64,000 nt of DNA from Streptomyces sp. NBC_01454 (GTDB lineage Bacteria > Actinomycetota > Actinomycetes > Streptomycetales > Streptomycetaceae): NCBI RefSeq assembly GCF_036227565.1, contig NZ_CP109460.1, forward strand, positions 6,510,001 to 6,574,000, read 5' to 3'. The first letter of the stretch is position 1, and each line of letters begins with the position of its first letter. A program made the position numbers and the translations under genes. The notes under the pieces are model-generated. The model was not told the origin of the DNA. It ran no database searches and worked only from the letters and a program-made list of their open reading frames with translations. This document shows positions 24,266-31,670 of the stretch, one piece after another.

Positions 24266-26413
24266 GTGACGGACCAGGCGGTGGGCGGGGGACCCTTCCT
24301 GCCGGAGACGGGGGAGGCGCCGGCCGCGCCGGCACCCGGCAGGCGCGCCCCGGGAGCCCGCCCGGAGGGCGCCGCCGCCCGCCCCGCCGCCCCCGCCGCC
24401 GGGGCCGCCGCCCCGCACTTCGCCGGGCGCCGCCGTGAACTCAAGGAGCTGCACGCCGACATCGCCCGGGCCGGCCTGGACACCCTCTCCGGCCGCAAGG
24501 GCACCCGCAGCCGGGTCCTGCTGATCGCCGGCCGCCCCGGTTCCGGGCGGACGGCCCTGGCCGAGCAGCTGCTGCGCGAGCTGGCCGGCGACCACCCCGA
24601 CGGGGTGCTGCGGGCCACGCTGACCGGGCCGGGCGGCGAACCGGCCGACACCGGCCGTACCGCCCGTGAGCTGCTGGCCGCCCTGGGCGCCGAGGCCCCG
24701 CCGGGCGCCGCCGAGGACGAGCTGACCGCGCAGCTGCGCGGGGCGCTCGCCGGGCGCAGCGCCCTGCTCTTCCTGGACGACGCCCCCGGTGCCGAACAGG
24801 TCGAACCGCTGCTCCCGGACGCCCCGGACTGCCTGGTCGTGGTGGTCTCCCAGGGCCCGCTGACCGGCATTCCGGACGTCCGGCCGTGTGCCCTGGGCGG
24901 GCTGGACAGCGCGGCCGGCGTCGAGATCCTCAGCCGGTACGCCGGGCCGACCCGGATCACCGTCGACCCCCGGACCGCCGACAGCGTCGTGGAGGAGTGC
25001 GGCGGCCAGCCCGCCGCCCTGGTGCTGGCCGGTGCCTGGCTCGCCGCCCGCCCCATGTCCTCGGTCGCCGATCTGCGCCAGGCGCTGCACGACATCGCAC
25101 TGCCCGAGGACCTGCCCACCGGCGTCCGCCCGCTGTGCCGCGCCTTCCGGCTCGCCCATGACGCGCTGCCGGCGCCCGCCGCCCGGATACTGCGGCTGCT
25201 CACCCTGGCGCCGGGCGGCCTGGTGGACGCCCACATCGCCTCCGCGCTGGCCGGCTGCTCGGTGGCCGCGGCCGCCACGACCCTGGACGACTTCGCCGCC
25301 CTCGGCCTGCTGCGCCCGCTCGCCGCACCGCAGGCCGAGGGCAGCGGATCCGCGGGCACCCGTACGCCCGATGCCGCCATGCACCCCCCGTACCGCCTGC
25401 CCGGCTGCCTCGATCCGCTGGTGCGCGCAACTCTGCCGGAACACGAGCGCCCGGCGGAGGTCCAGCTGGCCCGCGCCCGGATGCTGGAGCGGACCGTACG
25501 GCTGCTGCAGTCCTGCCGTGCCATGGGGGAGCCGGCCGACTCGCCCGCCCGGAAGAAGGTTGCCGGGCTGCCGCGCTCCCTGCGCTTCGCCTCGAAGGCG
25601 GCGGCCGCGCACTGGCTGCACAGCCGCCGCGGCGCGCTGCTCGACGCCGCCGCGATGGCCGTCGCGGACGGCGAACTCGACACCCTGGACCGGCGGTTGA
25701 TGGCCGCGCTGACCCGCACGCTGCTCGCGCACCAGGGCCCCGAGGCCGCCGCGCCGGACCTCTACGCGCTGCACGGGCTCGTCCTGCGGGTCGCCGAACG
25801 GCGCGGGCTGGCCCGGGAGCGGGCCGCCGCGCTGCTCAACCTCGCCGACCTGGACGGCCGGGCGGGCCGTACCGCACAGGCGCTCACCCGCTACCGGCAG
25901 GCGCTGGAGGCGGCCCGCTCGGTGCCGGACCCGGTGGCCACCGGCCGCGCGCTGGAGTCCCTGGGCTGCACGTACACCGAGCTGGGCGACTGGCAGCGGG
26001 CCGCCGACTGGTACGGCCGGGCGCTGGAGCTGCGGCTGGCCCGCGGCGAGGGCGCCGACGCGGCGCGGCTGTACGGCCGGATCGGCGGCGCGCACTCCTG
26101 CGCGGGCCGTTGGGACGAGGCGCTCACGTCCTGGCGGGCGGCTGCCCGGACCTTCCGCCGGCTCGGTGAGGTGTCCGGTCAGGCGCGGGCGACGGGGGAG
26201 ATGGCCCGGGTGCGGGAGTACGCGGGGCGGCCCGAGGAGGCGCTGCGGACCTGCCTGGAGGCCCTCGATCTCGCCCGAAAGGCGGACGACGGACGGCTGG
26301 AGGCGGCACTGCAGCTGCGGATCGCGGACACCCTCGAGCGGCTCGGCGATCCCGCGGCGGCACGCCTGCACCGCTCCGTGGGAGAACGACTCCTCGAAGA
26401 TTACCCCGAGTGA
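24266..26413 (+). CDS. STAND-type ATPase with C-terminal TPR repeats
   Basis: 715 aa. Ala/Pro-rich N-terminus (1-45), then FAGRRRELKELHADIARAGL and an NB-ARC/AfsR-like NTPase (about 80-370). Its P-loop reads GRPGSGRTAL, with Arg in place of the usual Lys. Walker B-like SALLFLDDA, then GGLDSAAGVEILSRYAG and EECGGQPAALVLAGAWLAARP (GxP module). The C-terminus (about 525-705) consists of TPR-like helices (RYRQALEAARSVPDPVATGR, ALESLGCTYTELGDWQRAAD, YGRIGGAHSCAGRWDEALTS). There is no DNA-binding domain, unlike AfsR/SARP proteins, so a signalling or scaffold role is likely. GTG 24266 follows GGGAG. Target unknown. Confidence 0.8.
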   Translation: MTDQAVGGGPFLPETGEAPAAPAPGRRAPGARPEGAAARPAAPAAGAAAPHFAGRRRELKELHADIARAGLDTLSGRKGTRSRVLLIAGRPGSGRTALAEQLLRELAGDHPDGVLRATLTGPGGEPADTGRTARELLAALGAEAPPGAAEDELTAQLRGALAGRSALLFLDDAPGAEQVEPLLPDAPDCLVVVVSQGPLTGIPDVRPCALGGLDSAAGVEILSRYAGPTRITVDPRTADSVVEECGGQPAALVLAGAWLAARPMSSVADLRQALHDIALPEDLPTGVRPLCRAFRLAHDALPAPAARILRLLTLAPGGLVDAHIASALAGCSVAAAATTLDDFAALGLLRPLAAPQAEGSGSAGTRTPDAAMHPPYRLPGCLDPLVRATLPEHERPAEVQLARARMLERTVRLLQSCRAMGEPADSPARKKVAGLPRSLRFASKAAAAHWLHSRRGALLDAAAMAVADGELDTLDRRLMAALTRTLLAHQGPEAAAPDLYALHGLVLRVAERRGLARERAAALLNLADLDGRAGRTAQALTRYRQALEAARSVPDPVATGRALESLGCTYTELGDWQRAADWYGRALELRLARGEGADAARLYGRIGGAHSCAGRWDEALTSWRAAARTFRRLGEVSGQARATGEMARVREYAGRPEEALRTCLEALDLARKADDGRLEAALQLRIADTLERLGDPAAARLHRSVGERLLEDYPE

Positions 26414-26489: not shown

Positions 26490-26581
26490 GGCTGGGCCGC
26501 GTACGGCGCGGTCAGTTCCGTCATGCAGCGCATGAGGGGATAATTCCTCCCGCACCCTCTCTTTCAAGGACCGTGATCGAC

Positions 26582-27697
26582 GTGAAGGTCGGCATCCCCC
26601 GCGAGGTCAAGAACAACGAGTTCCGCGTGGCCATCACGCCCGCCGGAGTCCACGAACTCGTCCGCCACGGCCACCAGGTCTTCATCGAGAAGGACGCCGG
26701 TCTCGGGTCGTCCATCACGAACGAGGAGTACGTCGCCGCCGGCGCCGGCATCCTCGACACCGCCGATGAGGTCTGGGGCACCGCTGACCTGCTGCTGAAG
26801 GTCAAGGAGCCGATCGCGGAGGAGTACCACCGCCTCCGCAAGGACCAGACGCTCTTCACCTACCTGCACCTGGCCGCGTCCCGGGAGTGCACGGACGCGC
26901 TGCTGGAGTCCGGCACCACCGCCATCGCCTACGAGACCGTCGAGACCGCCGGCCGCCAGCTGCCGCTGCTGGCCCCGATGTCCGAGGTCGCGGGCCGTAT
27001 CGCCCCGCAGGTCGGTGCCTACCACCTGATGCGCCAGGCCGGCGGCCGCGGTGTGCTGCCCGGCGGTGTCCCCGGTGTCGCCGCGGGCAAGGCCGTCATC
27101 ATCGGCGGTGGCGTCTCCGGCTGGAACGCGCTGCAGATCGCCGTGGGCCTCGGCTTCCACGTCACCCTGCTCGACAAGGACATCAACAAGCTCCGCGAGG
27201 CCGACAAGATCTTCGGCACCAAGGTGCAGACGATCGTCTCCAACGCCTACGAGCTGGAGAAGGCCGTCGTCGAGGCCGACCTCGTCGTCGGTGCCGTCCT
27301 GATCCCCGGTGCCAAGGCCCCCAAGCTGGTCACCAACGAGCTCGTCGCGAAGATGAAGCCCGGAAGTGTTCTTGTCGACATCGCGATCGACCAGGGCGGC
27401 TGCTTCGAGGACTCGCGTCCCACCACGCACGCCGAGCCGACCTTCCCGGTCCACAACTCGGTCTTCTACTGCGTCGCCAACATGCCCGGCGCGGTGCCGA
27501 ACACCTCCACCTACGCGCTCACCAACGCCACGCTGCCCTACATCGTGGAGCTGGCGAACCGTGGCTGGGTCGAGGCGCTGCGCCGTGACCCGGCGCTGGC
27601 CAAGGGCCTGAACACGCACGACGGCAAGGTCGTCTACGGCCCGGTCGCCGAGGCGCACGACCTGGAGCACATCGAGCTGCGCACCCTCCTCGGCTGA
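26582..27697 (+). CDS. ald: Alanine dehydrogenase
   Basis: NAD-dependent interconversion of L-alanine with pyruvate and ammonia. 371 aa, the family length. [20 protein letters not shown] start, substrate residues in [16 protein letters not shown] and LFTYLHLAA, and the NAD-binding Rossmann motif [17 protein letters not shown] (about 175-190) followed by [13 protein letters not shown]. Also [19 protein letters not shown] and [23 protein letters not shown] 26582 is favoured: it gives the canonical N-terminus and sits 11 bases from AAGGA. GTG 26573 is too close to that site. Confidence 0.96.
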
Positions 27698-27760: not shown

Positions 27761-28039
27761 TCGCATGTCCGACCAGCGGAATCATGCGTTCCGGAACGCC
27801 TGCTCTCAACTCGCCGCGAACGTAACCCTTTAACCGATTCGCGCACCCCCAAAACATCGGTGCGATACCGCCTGCGCCCTTGACATCGGGGGGTCCGGTT
27901 ACCGACACATCGTGCCGGGTCCGGTGGATTGTGTTGCTGCGGACGCCCGACACGCCATAGAGTCGCCAACCGTCGGCATGGTGCCACGCTGACCTATCGA
28001 TAAAGTTTCCTGGTCACATCCAAGGAGGTAAGACGACTT
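27761..28039 (+). promoter_or_regulatory. Promoter region of the ParA-like/scp operon
   Basis: Contains TTGCTG (27934-27939) and TAGAGT (27958-27963) with an 18-base spacer, a plausible main-sigma promoter about 75 bases before the start codon. The downstream leader has a TATCGATA palindrome near 27995. It ends in a near-perfect Shine-Dalgarno AAGGAGGT (28022-28029). Confidence 0.45.
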
Positions 28040-29200
28040 GTGAATGAGTCGACATTTTCTCCCGGAGGTGGTCAACCAGGAGTGGTTGCACGGGGCCAGG
28101 GTCCCTCGGGGCGCGAGGCTGTCGGCTCCGTCGCGGTCCACACCTCCGCAGCCCACCAGAGCATTTCCACGACAGCCCACCAGAGCATGGACGGCCATCA
28201 CGTGAACGCCATGGCCGGCGACCGGGGCAGTGGAGAACCCGCCCGTCTCGCCGACTACGACCTGCCCCAGGGGCACTTCTACGATCCGGACGCGGAGTAC
28301 GAGCCGGACCCCGAATACGCCGCGACGCTCGCGCCGGACGCCGCGCGACAGCGCCGCGAACGCGTCGGCCCGACCGGACGCCCGCTCCCTTACTTCCCCA
28401 TCCCCGGACCGCTGTCGGACCACGGCCCGGCCAAAATCATCGCGATGTGCAACCAGAAGGGCGGGGTCGGCAAGACCACCTCGACCATCAACCTGGGTGC
28501 CGCGCTCGCCGAATACGGCCGACGGGTGCTGCTCGTCGACTTCGACCCGCAGGGTGCCCTGTCGGTCGGACTCGGCGTCAACCCGATGGAGCTCGACCTG
28601 ACGGTCTACAACCTGCTCATGGAGCGGGGGATGTCGGCCGACGAGGTGCTCCTGAAGACCGCGGTCCCCAACATGGACCTGCTGCCCAGCAATATCGATT
28701 TGTCAGCGGCAGAGGTGCAGTTGGTCAGCGAGGTCGCGCGCGAGTCGACCCTGCAGCGCGCGCTGAAGCCGCTGCTGGCCGACTACGACTACATCGTCAT
28801 CGACTGCCAGCCCTCCCTCGGCCTGCTCACGGTGAACGCCCTGACGGCGGCTCACAAGGTCATCGTGCCGCTGGAGTGCGAGTTCTTCGCGCTGCGTGGT
28901 GTCGCGCTGCTCACCGAGACGATCGAGAAGGTGCAGGAGCGGCTCAACCCCGAGCTGGAGCTGGACGGCATCCTGGCGACGATGTACGACTCCCGCACCG
29001 TCCACAGCCGTGAGGTCCTGGCGCGCGTCGTCGAGGCCTTCGACGATCACGTCTACCACACCGTCATCGGCCGTACGGTCCGCTTCCCCGAGACCACCGT
29101 CGCGGGCGAGCCGATCACCACCTACGCCTCCAACTCCGTCGGGGCCGCCGCCTATCGCCAGCTCGCCAGGGAGGTGCTCGCCCGGTGTCACGCCGAGTGA
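28040..29200 (+). CDS. Orphan ParA-family partition ATPase linked to scpAB
   Basis: 386 aa. The first ~130 residues are a low-complexity extension rich in Gly, His and Ser, with a duplicated AHQS segment; an Asp/Glu/Tyr-rich stretch follows. The ParA ATPase core begins at AKIIAMCNQKGGVGKTTSTI, with deviant Walker A KGGVGKTT at about 140-147. It continues with VLLVDFDPQGALSVGLG (Walker A'), YDYIVIDCQPSLGLLTVNAL (Walker B), VPLECEFFALRGVALLTETI and YDSRTVHSREVL. It is not the oriC ParA, since no parB follows. Instead its 3' end overlaps a small basic protein gene by 16 bases, and scpA/scpB come next. GTG 28040 is preceded by AAGGAGGT. A role in chromosome segregation or organisation is inferred. 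Confidence 0.9.
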   Translation: MNESTFSPGGGQPGVVARGQGPSGREAVGSVAVHTSAAHQSISTTAHQSMDGHHVNAMAGDRGSGEPARLADYDLPQGHFYDPDAEYEPDPEYAATLAPDAARQRRERVGPTGRPLPYFPIPGPLSDHGPAKIIAMCNQKGGVGKTTSTINLGAALAEYGRRVLLVDFDPQGALSVGLGVNPMELDLTVYNLLMERGMSADEVLLKTAVPNMDLLPSNIDLSAAEVQLVSEVARESTLQRALKPLLADYDYIVIDCQPSLGLLTVNALTAAHKVIVPLECEFFALRGVALLTETIEKVQERLNPELELDGILATMYDSRTVHSREVLARVVEAFDDHVYHTVIGRTVRFPETTVAGEPITTYASNSVGAAAYRQLAREVLARCHAE

Positions 29201-29829
29201 GTCTTCCGGGAGCCGACGAACTGTTCCGTACCACTGGGGGAGTGGGGCTGCAGCCCTCCAGCCCCCGCCGGCCGGCGAACGGCTCGGCGGCGCCCGGCGA
29301 GGCGCCCCGCGTGCCCGCACCGGCCGGCGAACCCGATCCGGCGGCGGACGGGCCGGAGGCGGCCACCGCGGTCCGCCCGCGCCGGCCCGGAACCGGCGCG
29401 GACACCCCCGCGGCCACGGCCGGTGACGGCGGACCTGCCACCCCGCCGCGGGTGCCCGCCGTGGGCGCGCCGGCCGAGCACAGCGGCCGCGAGACGGACG
29501 GCGACGCGGCCAGGAACCACCGGGGTCAGGCCGGGACGGACGCGGCGGCGGCCGCGCAGCAGGCCGGCGGCCAGGGCCGCCGGCGCGGTGGCGGCCGTGG
29601 CGCCAACCGCCGCCCCAGCGGCCGGGAACGGCACGACGAGAAGATCACCGTCTATGTCTCCGCTGAGGAGCTCATGGACCTCGAACATGCCCGGCTGGTG
29701 CTGCGCGGCGAGCACGGCCTCGCCGTCGACCGCGGCCGGATCGTCCGCGAGGCGGTCGCCGTCGTCCTCGCCGACCTGGAGTCGCGCGGCGACGCCAGCA
29801 TCCTGGTGCGGCGGCTGCGCGGGCGTTAG
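29185..29829 (+). CDS. Hypothetical protein with probable C-terminal ribbon-helix-helix domain
   Basis: 214 aa. Residues 1-150 are Pro/Ala/Gly/Arg-rich and likely disordered, with a basic patch GRRRGGGRGANRRPSGRERH. The last ~60 residues are ordered: KITVYVSAEELMDLEHARLV, then DRGRIVREAVAVVLADLE. This is a short beta strand followed by two helices, the pattern of RHH (CopG/ParG/omega) DNA-binding dimers. GTG 29185 overlaps the ParA-like gene by 16 bases, so expression is coupled. A ParA plus a basic RHH protein is the composition of type Ib plasmid partition systems. The fold call is by eye; a different beta-alpha-alpha domain is possible. Confidence 0.62.
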   Translation: MSRRVSLPGADELFRTTGGVGLQPSSPRRPANGSAAPGEAPRVPAPAGEPDPAADGPEAATAVRPRRPGTGADTPAATAGDGGPATPPRVPAVGAPAEHSGRETDGDAARNHRGQAGTDAAAAAQQAGGQGRRRGGGRGANRRPSGRERHDEKITVYVSAEELMDLEHARLVLRGEHGLAVDRGRIVREAVAVVLADLESRGDASILVRRLRGR

Positions 29830-29922: not shown

Positions 29923-30969
29923 ATGCCGACGACCCACGACGACGCCCCCCGGCCCCGCGCCCGCAGATCACTCGGGCCCGGGCCGGCCGAGGCAGCGACG
30001 GAGCCGGTGGCACCCGAGACGCCGGCGCGGTCCGAGGACGCCGCCCGCATCCCGGCTCCGGCGGCCGTCGCGGCGGAAGAGATCCCGCAGGCCGGTTCCG
30101 CCGTGGCCGCGCCGGCGGACGGCGGCAGAGGCGGCGAGGGCACCTTCACCCTCCGGCTGGACAACTTCGAGGGCCCCTTCGACCTCCTGTTGCAGCTGAT
30201 CTCCCGACACAAGCTGGATGTCACCGAGGTCGCCCTGTCGAAGGTCACCGACGACTTCATGGCGCACATCCGCGCCATGGGGCCGGACTGGGACCTGGAC
30301 CAGACCACCGAGTTCCTGGTCGTCGCGGCGACCCTGCTGGACCTCAAGGCGGCCCGGCTGCTGCCCGTGGCCGAGGTGGAGGACGAGGCGGACCTGGCGC
30401 TGCTGGAGGCCCGTGACCTGCTCTTCGCCCGGCTGCTGCAGTACCGCGCCTACAAGCGGATCGCGGACATCTTCAGCGGCCGGCTGGCGGACGAGAGCCG
30501 GCGGTATCCCCGTACGGTCGGGCTGGAGCCGCACCTCGCCGAGCTGCTGCCCGAGGTCGTCATCAGCATCGGCGCGGAGGGCTTCGCCCAGCTGGCGGTG
30601 AAGGCGATGCAGCCCAAGGCCAGACCGCAGGTCTATGTCGACCACATCCACGCGCCGCTGGTGAGCGTGCGCGAGCAGGCCGAGGTGGTGATGGCGTGGC
30701 TGCGGGAGGCGGGCGAGGCCAGCTTCGGCAAGCTGGTCGCCGACGCACCGGACACCCTCACCGTCGTGGCGCGCTTCCTGGCCCTGCTGGAGCTCTACCG
30801 GGAGCGGGTGGTGGCCCTGGAGCAGGAGGAGGCCCTGGGCGAGCTGCTGGTCCGCTGGACGGGCACCGAGGGGGCCGCGCCGCGCGTCACGGACGAGTTC
30901 GACCGGGAGCCGGGGCAGCGGGCCGACGCGGAAGAGCCCGCGGAGCAGGCGGAGGAGGAACAGGCATGA
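29923..30969 (+). CDS. scpA: Segregation and condensation protein A
   Basis: Kleisin subunit of the Smc-ScpAB condensin. 348 aa: a variable Ala/Pro-rich N-terminus (1-75), then the ScpA signature FTLRLDNFEGPFDLLLQLIS (about 75-94), KLDVTEVALSKVTDDFMAHI, EFLVVAATLLDLKAARLLP, ARLLQYRAYKRIADIFS. The C-terminal winged helix is FLALLELYRERVVALEQEEA with an acidic tail. The core start is uncertain; ATG 29923 is the best, 93 bases after the RHH gene. Its TGA overlaps the scpB ATG (ATGA). Linkage to a ParA-like gene unites segregation functions. Confidence 0.95.
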   Translation: MPTTHDDAPRPRARRSLGPGPAEAATEPVAPETPARSEDAARIPAPAAVAAEEIPQAGSAVAAPADGGRGGEGTFTLRLDNFEGPFDLLLQLISRHKLDVTEVALSKVTDDFMAHIRAMGPDWDLDQTTEFLVVAATLLDLKAARLLPVAEVEDEADLALLEARDLLFARLLQYRAYKRIADIFSGRLADESRRYPRTVGLEPHLAELLPEVVISIGAEGFAQLAVKAMQPKARPQVYVDHIHAPLVSVREQAEVVMAWLREAGEASFGKLVADAPDTLTVVARFLALLELYRERVVALEQEEALGELLVRWTGTEGAAPRVTDEFDREPGQRADAEEPAEQAEEEQA

Positions 30970-31670
30970 GCGGTGTGACCGGTGGTGAGGCGTACGACGT
31001 CACGGAGGCGGGTGCGCACCCGCGGACCGGGACGGACGGTGAGCCCGGGGCGCCGGCCGGGGCGCCGGGCGTCGACGGGCTGGCGCTGAAGCCCGCGCTG
31101 GAGGCCGTCCTCATGGTCGTCGACGAGCCCGCGACCGAGGAGCACCTGGCCAGGGTGCTCCAGCGGCCCCGCCGTGCGGTGGCGCTGGCGCTGCGCGAGC
31201 TGTCCGACGACTACACCCGCCAGGGGCGCGGTTTCGACCTCCGGCTGGTCGCCGGCGGCTGGCGCTTCTCCTCCCGCGCCGAGTATGCGGACGCGGTGGA
31301 GAGCTTCGTTCTGGACGGGCAGCAGGCCCGTCTCACCCAGGCCGCATTGGAGACTCTGGCCGTGGTCGCGTACCGTCAGCCGGTCAGCCGTTCCCGAGTC
31401 TCGGCCGTACGCGGCGTGAACTGTGACGGTGTGATGCGCACGCTCCTCCAGCGCGGCCTGGTGGAGGAGGCGGGGACGGAACCTGAAACAGGTGCGATCC
31501 TGTACAGGACGACGAATTACTTTCTGGAGCGGATGGGCCTGCGCGGCCTGGACGAGCTCCCTGAGCTCGCACCCTTCCTCCCGGAGGCGGAAGCGGTCGA
31601 GGGCGACTCCCCGGAAGGTATCCCGTCGTTCGACGTAGACGACAGCGGCGACTCTCAGACGGATCATTGA
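30966..31670 (+). CDS. scpB: Segregation and condensation protein B
   Basis: Winged-helix dimer that binds the ScpA kleisin. 234 aa: an acidic low-complexity N-terminus (1-38), then LKPALEAVLMVVDEPATEEH, a first wHTH, GFDLRLVAGGWRFSSRAEYA, a second wHTH (ARLTQAALETLAVVAYRQPV, SRSRVSAVRGVNCDGVMRTL) and LYRTTNYFLERMGLRGLDELP. The ATG at 30966 overlaps the scpA stop; its own TGA overlaps the next ATG at 31670. Confidence 0.95.
   Translation: MSGVTGGEAYDVTEAGAHPRTGTDGEPGAPAGAPGVDGLALKPALEAVLMVVDEPATEEHLARVLQRPRRAVALALRELSDDYTRQGRGFDLRLVAGGWRFSSRAEYADAVESFVLDGQQARLTQAALETLAVVAYRQPVSRSRVSAVRGVNCDGVMRTLLQRGLVEEAGTEPETGAILYRTTNYFLERMGLRGLDELPELAPFLPEAEAVEGDSPEGIPSFDVDDSGDSQTDH

Follow-up and report, generated by a model that had tools for sequence, protein, structure and literature searches.

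In archaea (Saccharolobus/Sulfolobus), the SegA-SegB system pairs a chromosomal ParA-type ATPase gene with an overlapping downstream gene for a site-specific DNA-binding protein of ribbon-helix-helix (RHH) type that has no recognised bacterial sequence relatives; in the passages cited here, SegB sites lie at the segA start codon and at -59 (PMC12284271, PMC5120986, PMC9178275). Type-I plasmid partition systems with an RHH component (pCXC100 ParB, TP228 ParF/ParG and pSM19035) are built from a ParA and a small RHH partner encoded by linked genes. Chromosomal ParABS systems combine a ParA ATPase with a site-specific DNA-binding ParB of helix-turn-helix (HTH) type, and the cited part of a 2026 paper describes HTH-ParB as the only type on bacterial chromosomes (PMC13245405). 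Myxococcus xanthus has a chromosomal RHH protein needed for nucleoid organisation, CdbA, but this is a 67-aa c-di-GMP receptor for which the cited text reports no ParA partner (PMC7156744). Finally, ParA2/PldP/Rv1708 have been studied as orphan ParA proteins with a role near division sites: in the excerpts cited, PldP of C. glutamicum is described without a partner ParB (PMC3989709), and Rv1708 binds both ScpA and ParB (PMC10482377).

We analysed a 64,000-nucleotide stretch of the Streptomyces sp. NBC_01454 chromosome (G000:C1:6510001-6574000; hereafter the window), in which a parA2 gene and an overlapping small gene for a predicted RHH protein precede scpA and scpB. The pair resembles SegAB in design: in gene order and overlap, in the predicted RHH fold of the partner, and in a predicted site at the ParA-gene start and a candidate one upstream. 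The two differ in the DNA concerned: SegB has the motif TCTAGASTCTAGA and, in the cited passages, 39 ChIP peaks on the S. solfataricus chromosome (PMC12284271, PMC5120986, PMC9178275), whereas the predicted Streptomyces site is centred on GTCGACA and has one exact composite copy in the genome. With the plasmid systems the pair shares its two components and its linkage, pCXC100 ParB being a top fold match of the small protein's domain; unlike them it is chromosomal, on a contig of more than 7.6 Mb, is present in one copy per genome and, in Streptomyces, has a long linker. The first-pass annotation had called the locus plasmid-like, a description that suits its design but not its relationships, since tblastn found no relative of the small protein in 72,556 plasmid records. 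Like ParABS, the pair joins a ParA ATPase to a DNA-binding partner predicted to be site-specific, but that partner lacks a ParB_N match and is RHH by model, and a canonical parB lies elsewhere in the same genome. PldP, Rv1708/MSMEG_3743 and ParA2 (SCO1772) are by description the same ParA, with scpA linked in M. smegmatis by tag number; the Streptomyces locus differs from PldP and Rv1708 by a candidate partner gene between parA2 and scpA.

The parA2 locus and its small protein

Open reading frames and Pfam matches gave the order parA2 (28040-29200), small gene (29185-29829), scpA (29923-30969; PF02616, SMC_ScpA, 3.3e-57) and scpB (30966-31670; PF04079, SMC_ScpB, 1.7e-50; TIGR00281 above its cut-off), all on the forward strand, confirming the 16-base overlap of parA2 and the small gene that had been reported ahead of scpA and scpB. 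ParA2 (386 aa; Pfam AAA_31, 1e-62) is a ParA/MinD-family ATPase with the deviant Walker A motif of ParA type (KGGVGKTT) and an N-terminal extension of about 127 aa; its PDB matches include Soj and 4pfs ("cobyrinic acid a,c-diamide synthase"). At E <= 1e-75 it has one match per genome in 280 of 296 genomes of the class. We take parA2 as the orthologue of SCO1772, PldP (Cg1610) and Rv1708, and SCO1771 is presumably the S. coelicolor counterpart of the small gene. No description of the small protein was found among the open-licence papers listed for SCO1771/SCO1772, orphan ParA, PldP/Rv1708, ParA-RHH and ParA2-ScpA; within that literature the earlier statement that no function had been described applies to the small protein and not to its ParA, which has been studied as ParA2/PldP/Rv1708. 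Upstream in the window, the open reading frames at 24266-26413 and 26573-27697 resemble, by eye, an AfsR-related ATPase/TPR protein and an alanine dehydrogenase, the SCO1774-1773 pair. Mutants of that pair have a spore-pigment defect, with possible polarity on SCO1772 in the cited passage (PMC3878966), and polarity on parA2 may contribute to this sporulation phenotype.

At E <= 1 the small protein (214 aa) matches nothing in Pfam or NCBIfam, and PDB sequence searches with the protein alone or with an alignment of 23 wide-range relatives (A3) returned unrelated matches only (best E 0.23 and 0.53, respectively). Its best relatives come from named Streptomyces, and relatives are annotated mostly as "hypothetical protein" and sometimes as "Cobyrinic acid a,c-diamide synthase", which we take to be a name carried over from the neighbouring ParA. 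The gene is not a chance reading frame, since it recurs in 137 of 296 class genomes (searched with A3), is conserved at both ends and adjoins or overlaps parA2. An alignment of 19 Streptomyces proteins shows hardly any variation in the first ~19 and the final ~70 residues and a variable middle, giving three parts, all on the forward strand: a conserved N-terminal motif, MSRRVSLPGADELFRTT, as a candidate ParA2-contacting peptide (29185..29235); a hypervariable Pro/Ala/Gly linker, predicted to be disordered (29236..29601; pLDDT <50 over most of it); and a C-terminal domain modelled as RHH-type (residues 140-214; 29602..29826). Two N-terminal positions, M1 and R4, are invariant in A3, as are H150, K153, T155, Y157, L163, E167, R170, L173, R174, D182, R183, G184, R188, A190, L195 and L211 in the domain. 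Of 74 non-redundant gene-positive loci, 72 encode the N-terminal motif RRxSLPGADELFR or one close to it, 58 being recognised by pattern and 14 by eye. The motif is absent from L034 (family f71) and L076 (family f83), both of which keep the RHH domain and in both of which the contact with ParA2 may be different.

Modelled alone, the domain reached a pLDDT of 90.9, with helices at residues 160-177 and 183-204, the same two as in the full-length model. Of the strand-helix-helix block proposed from the sequence, the helices were recovered; DSSP assigned no preceding strand in either monomer model (full protein or domain). The two best PDB fold matches, NikR and the centromere-binding ParB of pCXC100, are proteins that we take to be RHH, and the NikR alignment extends over the strand region (model residues 12-59). 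SegB was not among the matches listed, which counts for nothing against a relation. The fold scores are weak (Foldseek best E 2.6; Z <5; VIA-align also weak), and the mostly disordered full-length model had three fold matches, pCXC100 ParB included, none better than E 2.7. No Pfam RHH family was matched, RHH_3 being reached by 1 of the 23 relatives at E=0.13 only, and Pfam gave no ParB_N/HTH domain. Variable hydrophobic residues stand between K153, T155 and Y157, an alternation that would suit the outer face of a ribbon reading DNA. Taking the model and its two best fold matches together, with the Pfam and NCBIfam profiles silent, we consider an RHH fold very likely, in agreement with the first reading of the locus.

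Distribution and history of the pair

Beyond the class set, the small gene was found in 47 of 386 phylum genomes, 34 of these outside the class; ScpA was found in 285 of the 296 class genomes. These whole-genome searches scored the best candidates of a first pass (12 per genome for the class, 9 for the phylum), and misses are possible. Wherever rows for both genes were listed, the small gene lay directly 3' of parA2 on the same strand (87 of 87 genomes), its RHH match starting between 13 bases before and 77 bases after the point where the ParA2 match ends. These adjacency counts draw on one row per gene-positive genome (137), on 150 of the 280 ParA2 genomes and on 115 ScpA rows (285 genomes had one); the row for G630 joins two, the longer row was used for G191 and a second row for G477 was dropped. 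The named loci number at least 80, and the 80 listed are all from Actinomycetota (Streptomyces, Kitasatospora, Nocardioides, Pseudonocardiales, Nitriliruptoraceae and others); ParA2 is upstream in 78 of the 80, and the remaining two start at a contig end. One set of 30 loci has ParA2 upstream in all 30, in L045 as broken frames. The ParA-RHH pairing proposed from the single window extends to all 87 genomes with both rows, and we consider the small protein a likely partner of ParA2.

At L045, the RHH gene is intact but the adjacent parA2 is broken into several frames, through either an assembly error or gene decay. ParA2 and ScpA rows were compared for 35 genomes that lack the small gene. In 34 of them the ParA2 match and the ScpA domain are only 101-240 bases apart; in the remaining one, G487, they are separated by 820 bases that hold another open frame. 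We also considered parA2-scpA gaps of ~680-900 bp at three loci (L086, L098 and L101) as hiding a small gene, and rejected them after finding no RHH by eye or profile in six frames. The gap frame at these loci is membrane-protein-like, by eye a relative of small M50-type metalloproteases.

A ParA2 tree was built from 94 loci, of which 74 have the small gene and 20 lack it; presence of the gene requires 8 changes there against a shuffled mean of 18.4, and only 2 of the 8 are forced by well-supported branches. Loci were thinned at 86% ParA identity, those with <500 nt upstream were dropped and L186-L206 were left out. Some gene-negative ParA2 are nested in gene-positive groups; family f5, for instance, groups with Pseudonocardiaceae and f115 (SH-aLRT 98). 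Outside-class loci entered the tree because they had the gene, so the frequency of gene-negative lineages there is not readable from it. Most simply, these sequences reflect one old pair with several losses inside the class; acquisition by transfer is a possible alternative.

A predicted DNA site at the parA2 start

The predicted binding site, CTTGTGAATGAGTCGACA, spans the parA2 start codon (28037..28054, forward strand) and was recognised from conservation and a genome scan. Its composite form, CTTGTN6GTCGACA, has one exact match in the 9.46 Mb genome, at this position, ~2.5 Mb from the canonical parB (ParB_N at G000:C1:4061131); with one mismatch allowed there are 9 matches, compared with 12 for a reversed control. 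The same 18-mer, with spacer GAATGA, occurs in 18 of 21 genomes (its own included), near the pair's place where this is comparable; of the other three, G013 has a different match elsewhere and G016 and G020 have none. The start region, CTTGTGAATGAGTCGACATTT, is nearly frozen in Streptomyces and relatives. In loci whose ParA2 aligns from residue 1-3 (51 loci, 47 distinct start regions, from Streptomyces and its nearest relatives), codons 4 and 5 of parA2 are TCG and ACA in 47 of 47, codon 2 is AAT in 46 of 47 and codon 6 is TTT in all 43 that encode Phe. Across seven window genes, ACA accounts for 3 of 142 Thr codons and TTT for 2 of 53 Phe codons. Selection for an AT-rich start could contribute to this freezing.

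An open k-mer count placed TGTCGACA, GTCGACA and TAGAGTCGC among the most over-represented words upstream of gene-positive loci, and all three are rare or absent upstream of gene-negative loci. Because shuffles of these gene-positive loci served as the background for choosing the words, part of their excess there reflects selection; gene-negative loci played no part in the choice. GTGTAGA and AGATCTA, also high in the list, were set aside as common to gene-negative loci. After thinning at 90% ParA identity and removal of loci with <600 nt upstream, GTCGACA was scored in the 500 nt preceding the ATPase domain: of 86 loci with the gene, 70 carry it, compared with 8.6 after shuffling, and of 18 loci without the gene, 3 do, compared with 1.9 (Fisher 2.9e-7). 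Counting one hand-picked locus per family, with two families on both sides, the figures are 20 of 26 with the gene and 2 of 13 without (Fisher 4e-4). In the tree set they are 57 of 74 and 3 of 20, leaving 17 of 74 gene-positive loci without the word within 500 nt; phylogenetically independent site/gene pairs on well-supported branches number two, too few for an association test. The second conserved element, TAGAGTCGC, a candidate second site upstream of parA2 (27958..27966, forward strand) recognised from the k-mer count, occurs in 28 of 86 loci with the gene and 0 of 18 without (0.0 in shuffles).

A full palindrome, TTGTCGACAA, is present in five loci that come mainly from outside the class (L011, L029, L036, L044 and L153). 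Among 62 loci with at least 8 of its 10 bases, 32 have it in the frame xTG TCG ACA and 30 in the other two frames; ParA2 coding could contribute to the former, and the latter imply that coding does not explain all of the site. In the home genome, TGTCGACA occurs 89 times, compared with 44 for the pattern read backwards. For the 50 of these sites that were listed, which extend to 5.26 Mb, no interval of 10-400 kb clearly exceeds random placement, the densest (11 in 400 kb) being reached by 8.4% of random sets. The region upstream of parA2 holds the site at the start and TAGAGTCGC, with no regular array of centromere-like repeats.

We assign the site to the small protein because the two co-occur and because SegB offers a precedent, and on these sequence grounds we judge it probable that the small protein targets a GTCGACA-type site, as the earlier suggestion that the pair has its own DNA site had anticipated. 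A single exact composite site is no less expected of an autoregulator than of a centromere. The small protein might accordingly be only a transcriptional autorepressor of parA2, and perhaps of scpAB, with ParA2 working without touching it. Many RHH proteins are repressors, the exact composite site occurs across the start codon and nowhere else in the genome, and in lineages lacking the gene ParA2 must act without such contact (of 296 class genomes, 280 have ParA2 and 137 the small gene). A plain repressor, however, has no obvious need of the conserved N-terminal motif, and in the rows listed the gene always lies beside parA2; we think this explanation unlikely.

A strongly diverged relative at L080 (2537-3067, reverse strand) has strand residues, TEQVGLRLPS, that differ from the invariant K-T-Y set; its N-terminal motif is intact and no GTCGACA lies upstream. 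It is a possible natural change of DNA specificity.

Proposed mechanism and relation to condensin

On balance, we favour a chromosomal ParA-RHH pair of partition type, a design counterpart of SegA-SegB with a partition-like mechanism overall. The C-terminal domain is predicted, from the model and the conserved footprint, to dimerise as an RHH and to read the GTCGACA-centred site at or near the parA2 start; binding there would make parA2 autoregulated and may seed a partition-like complex. ParB and ParG trigger ATP hydrolysis by ParA-type ATPases through N-terminal peptides, and by analogy the RRxSLPGADELFR peptide, on its flexible linker, would reach nucleoid-bound ParA2-ATP and trigger hydrolysis. 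The resulting ParA2 gradient would position the bound chromosome region, or ParA2 itself relative to the nucleoid and the division site. ScpA and ParB are likely clients of such a gradient, since mycobacterial Rv1708 binds both. The pair would predate the class, and "orphan" ParA2 proteins such as PldP and Rv1708 have probably lost their partner gene.

A different role, in septum placement, would make the system MinD-MinE-like or PldP-like, with the RHH protein anchoring ParA2 to the nucleoid or resetting it. The published excerpts report that deletion of pldP yields minicells and variable cell length with little segregation defect, and that Rv1708 complements the minicell phenotype of E. coli HL1. 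In the same excerpts, however, PldP and Rv1708 are described without a partner; together with the consecutive tags of M. smegmatis MSMEG_3743 (ParA) and MSMEG_3742 (ScpA), this leads us to read their phenotypes as those of the state without the small protein. Streptomyces, moreover, divides mainly at sporulation. We regard a role in septum placement of this kind as quite unlikely.

We regard the candidate partner of ParA2 as real and widely conserved, though unannotated; its RHH fold and its site are predictions. Only tentatively would we extend the partition reading to a second chromosome-partition machine of Actinomycetota, of RHH type, with a centromere-like site at the parA2 locus, independent of condensin, older than the class split and the first of its kind to be described on bacterial chromosomes, the mycobacterial and corynebacterial orphan ParAs being remnants rewired to ScpA, ParB and the septum. 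If true, this would challenge the view that only HTH-ParB partition systems occur on bacterial chromosomes, and Streptomyces and Nocardioides would be where the full mechanism is testable. If the RHH partner and its site are the older state, experiments in Mycobacterium and Corynebacterium describe a reduced system. One gene, one peptide and one DNA site are now named for testing.

The first-pass annotation had tied the pair to condensin as a possible loader or positioner of Smc-ScpAB. In 59 of 63 gene-positive class genomes with both rows, scpA lies downstream on the same strand; in the other 4, all of family f99, it is divergent and ~1.1 kb away. At L070 scpA is likewise on the opposite strand, and at L071, of the same family, it is in line. 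Among the outside-class loci of L028-L045 (L042 is inside the class), 13 of 17 have no ScpA in flanks of at most 1.5 kb per side. G641, a 99% complete genome in nine contigs, retains the parA2-RHH pair, with no ScpA match genome-wide and no ScpA or ScpB beside the pair (L085); its best SMC_N match is 1.1e-18 in a 404-aa frame, whereas G589 and G516 have far stronger matches in frames of >1000 aa. That loading or positioning Smc-ScpAB is the pair's main job, as the prevailing gene order and the binding of ScpA by Rv1708 in the cited excerpt might suggest, is very unlikely in view of the 13 outside-class flanks, the divergent scpAB of f99 and L070, and the G641 pair with no detectable ScpA or SMC-sized match. 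Adjacency to scpAB is thus not constant across actinobacteria, some lineages keeping the pair apart from it, and as judged from gene order the conserved unit is parA2 with the small gene, not the link to condensin. The pair in G641, a single genome, suggests that it can outlive condensin. G641 and G608, both nearly complete genomes, have no detectable ScpA and no SMC_N match as strong and as long as those of G589 and G516, an apparent loss of condensin.
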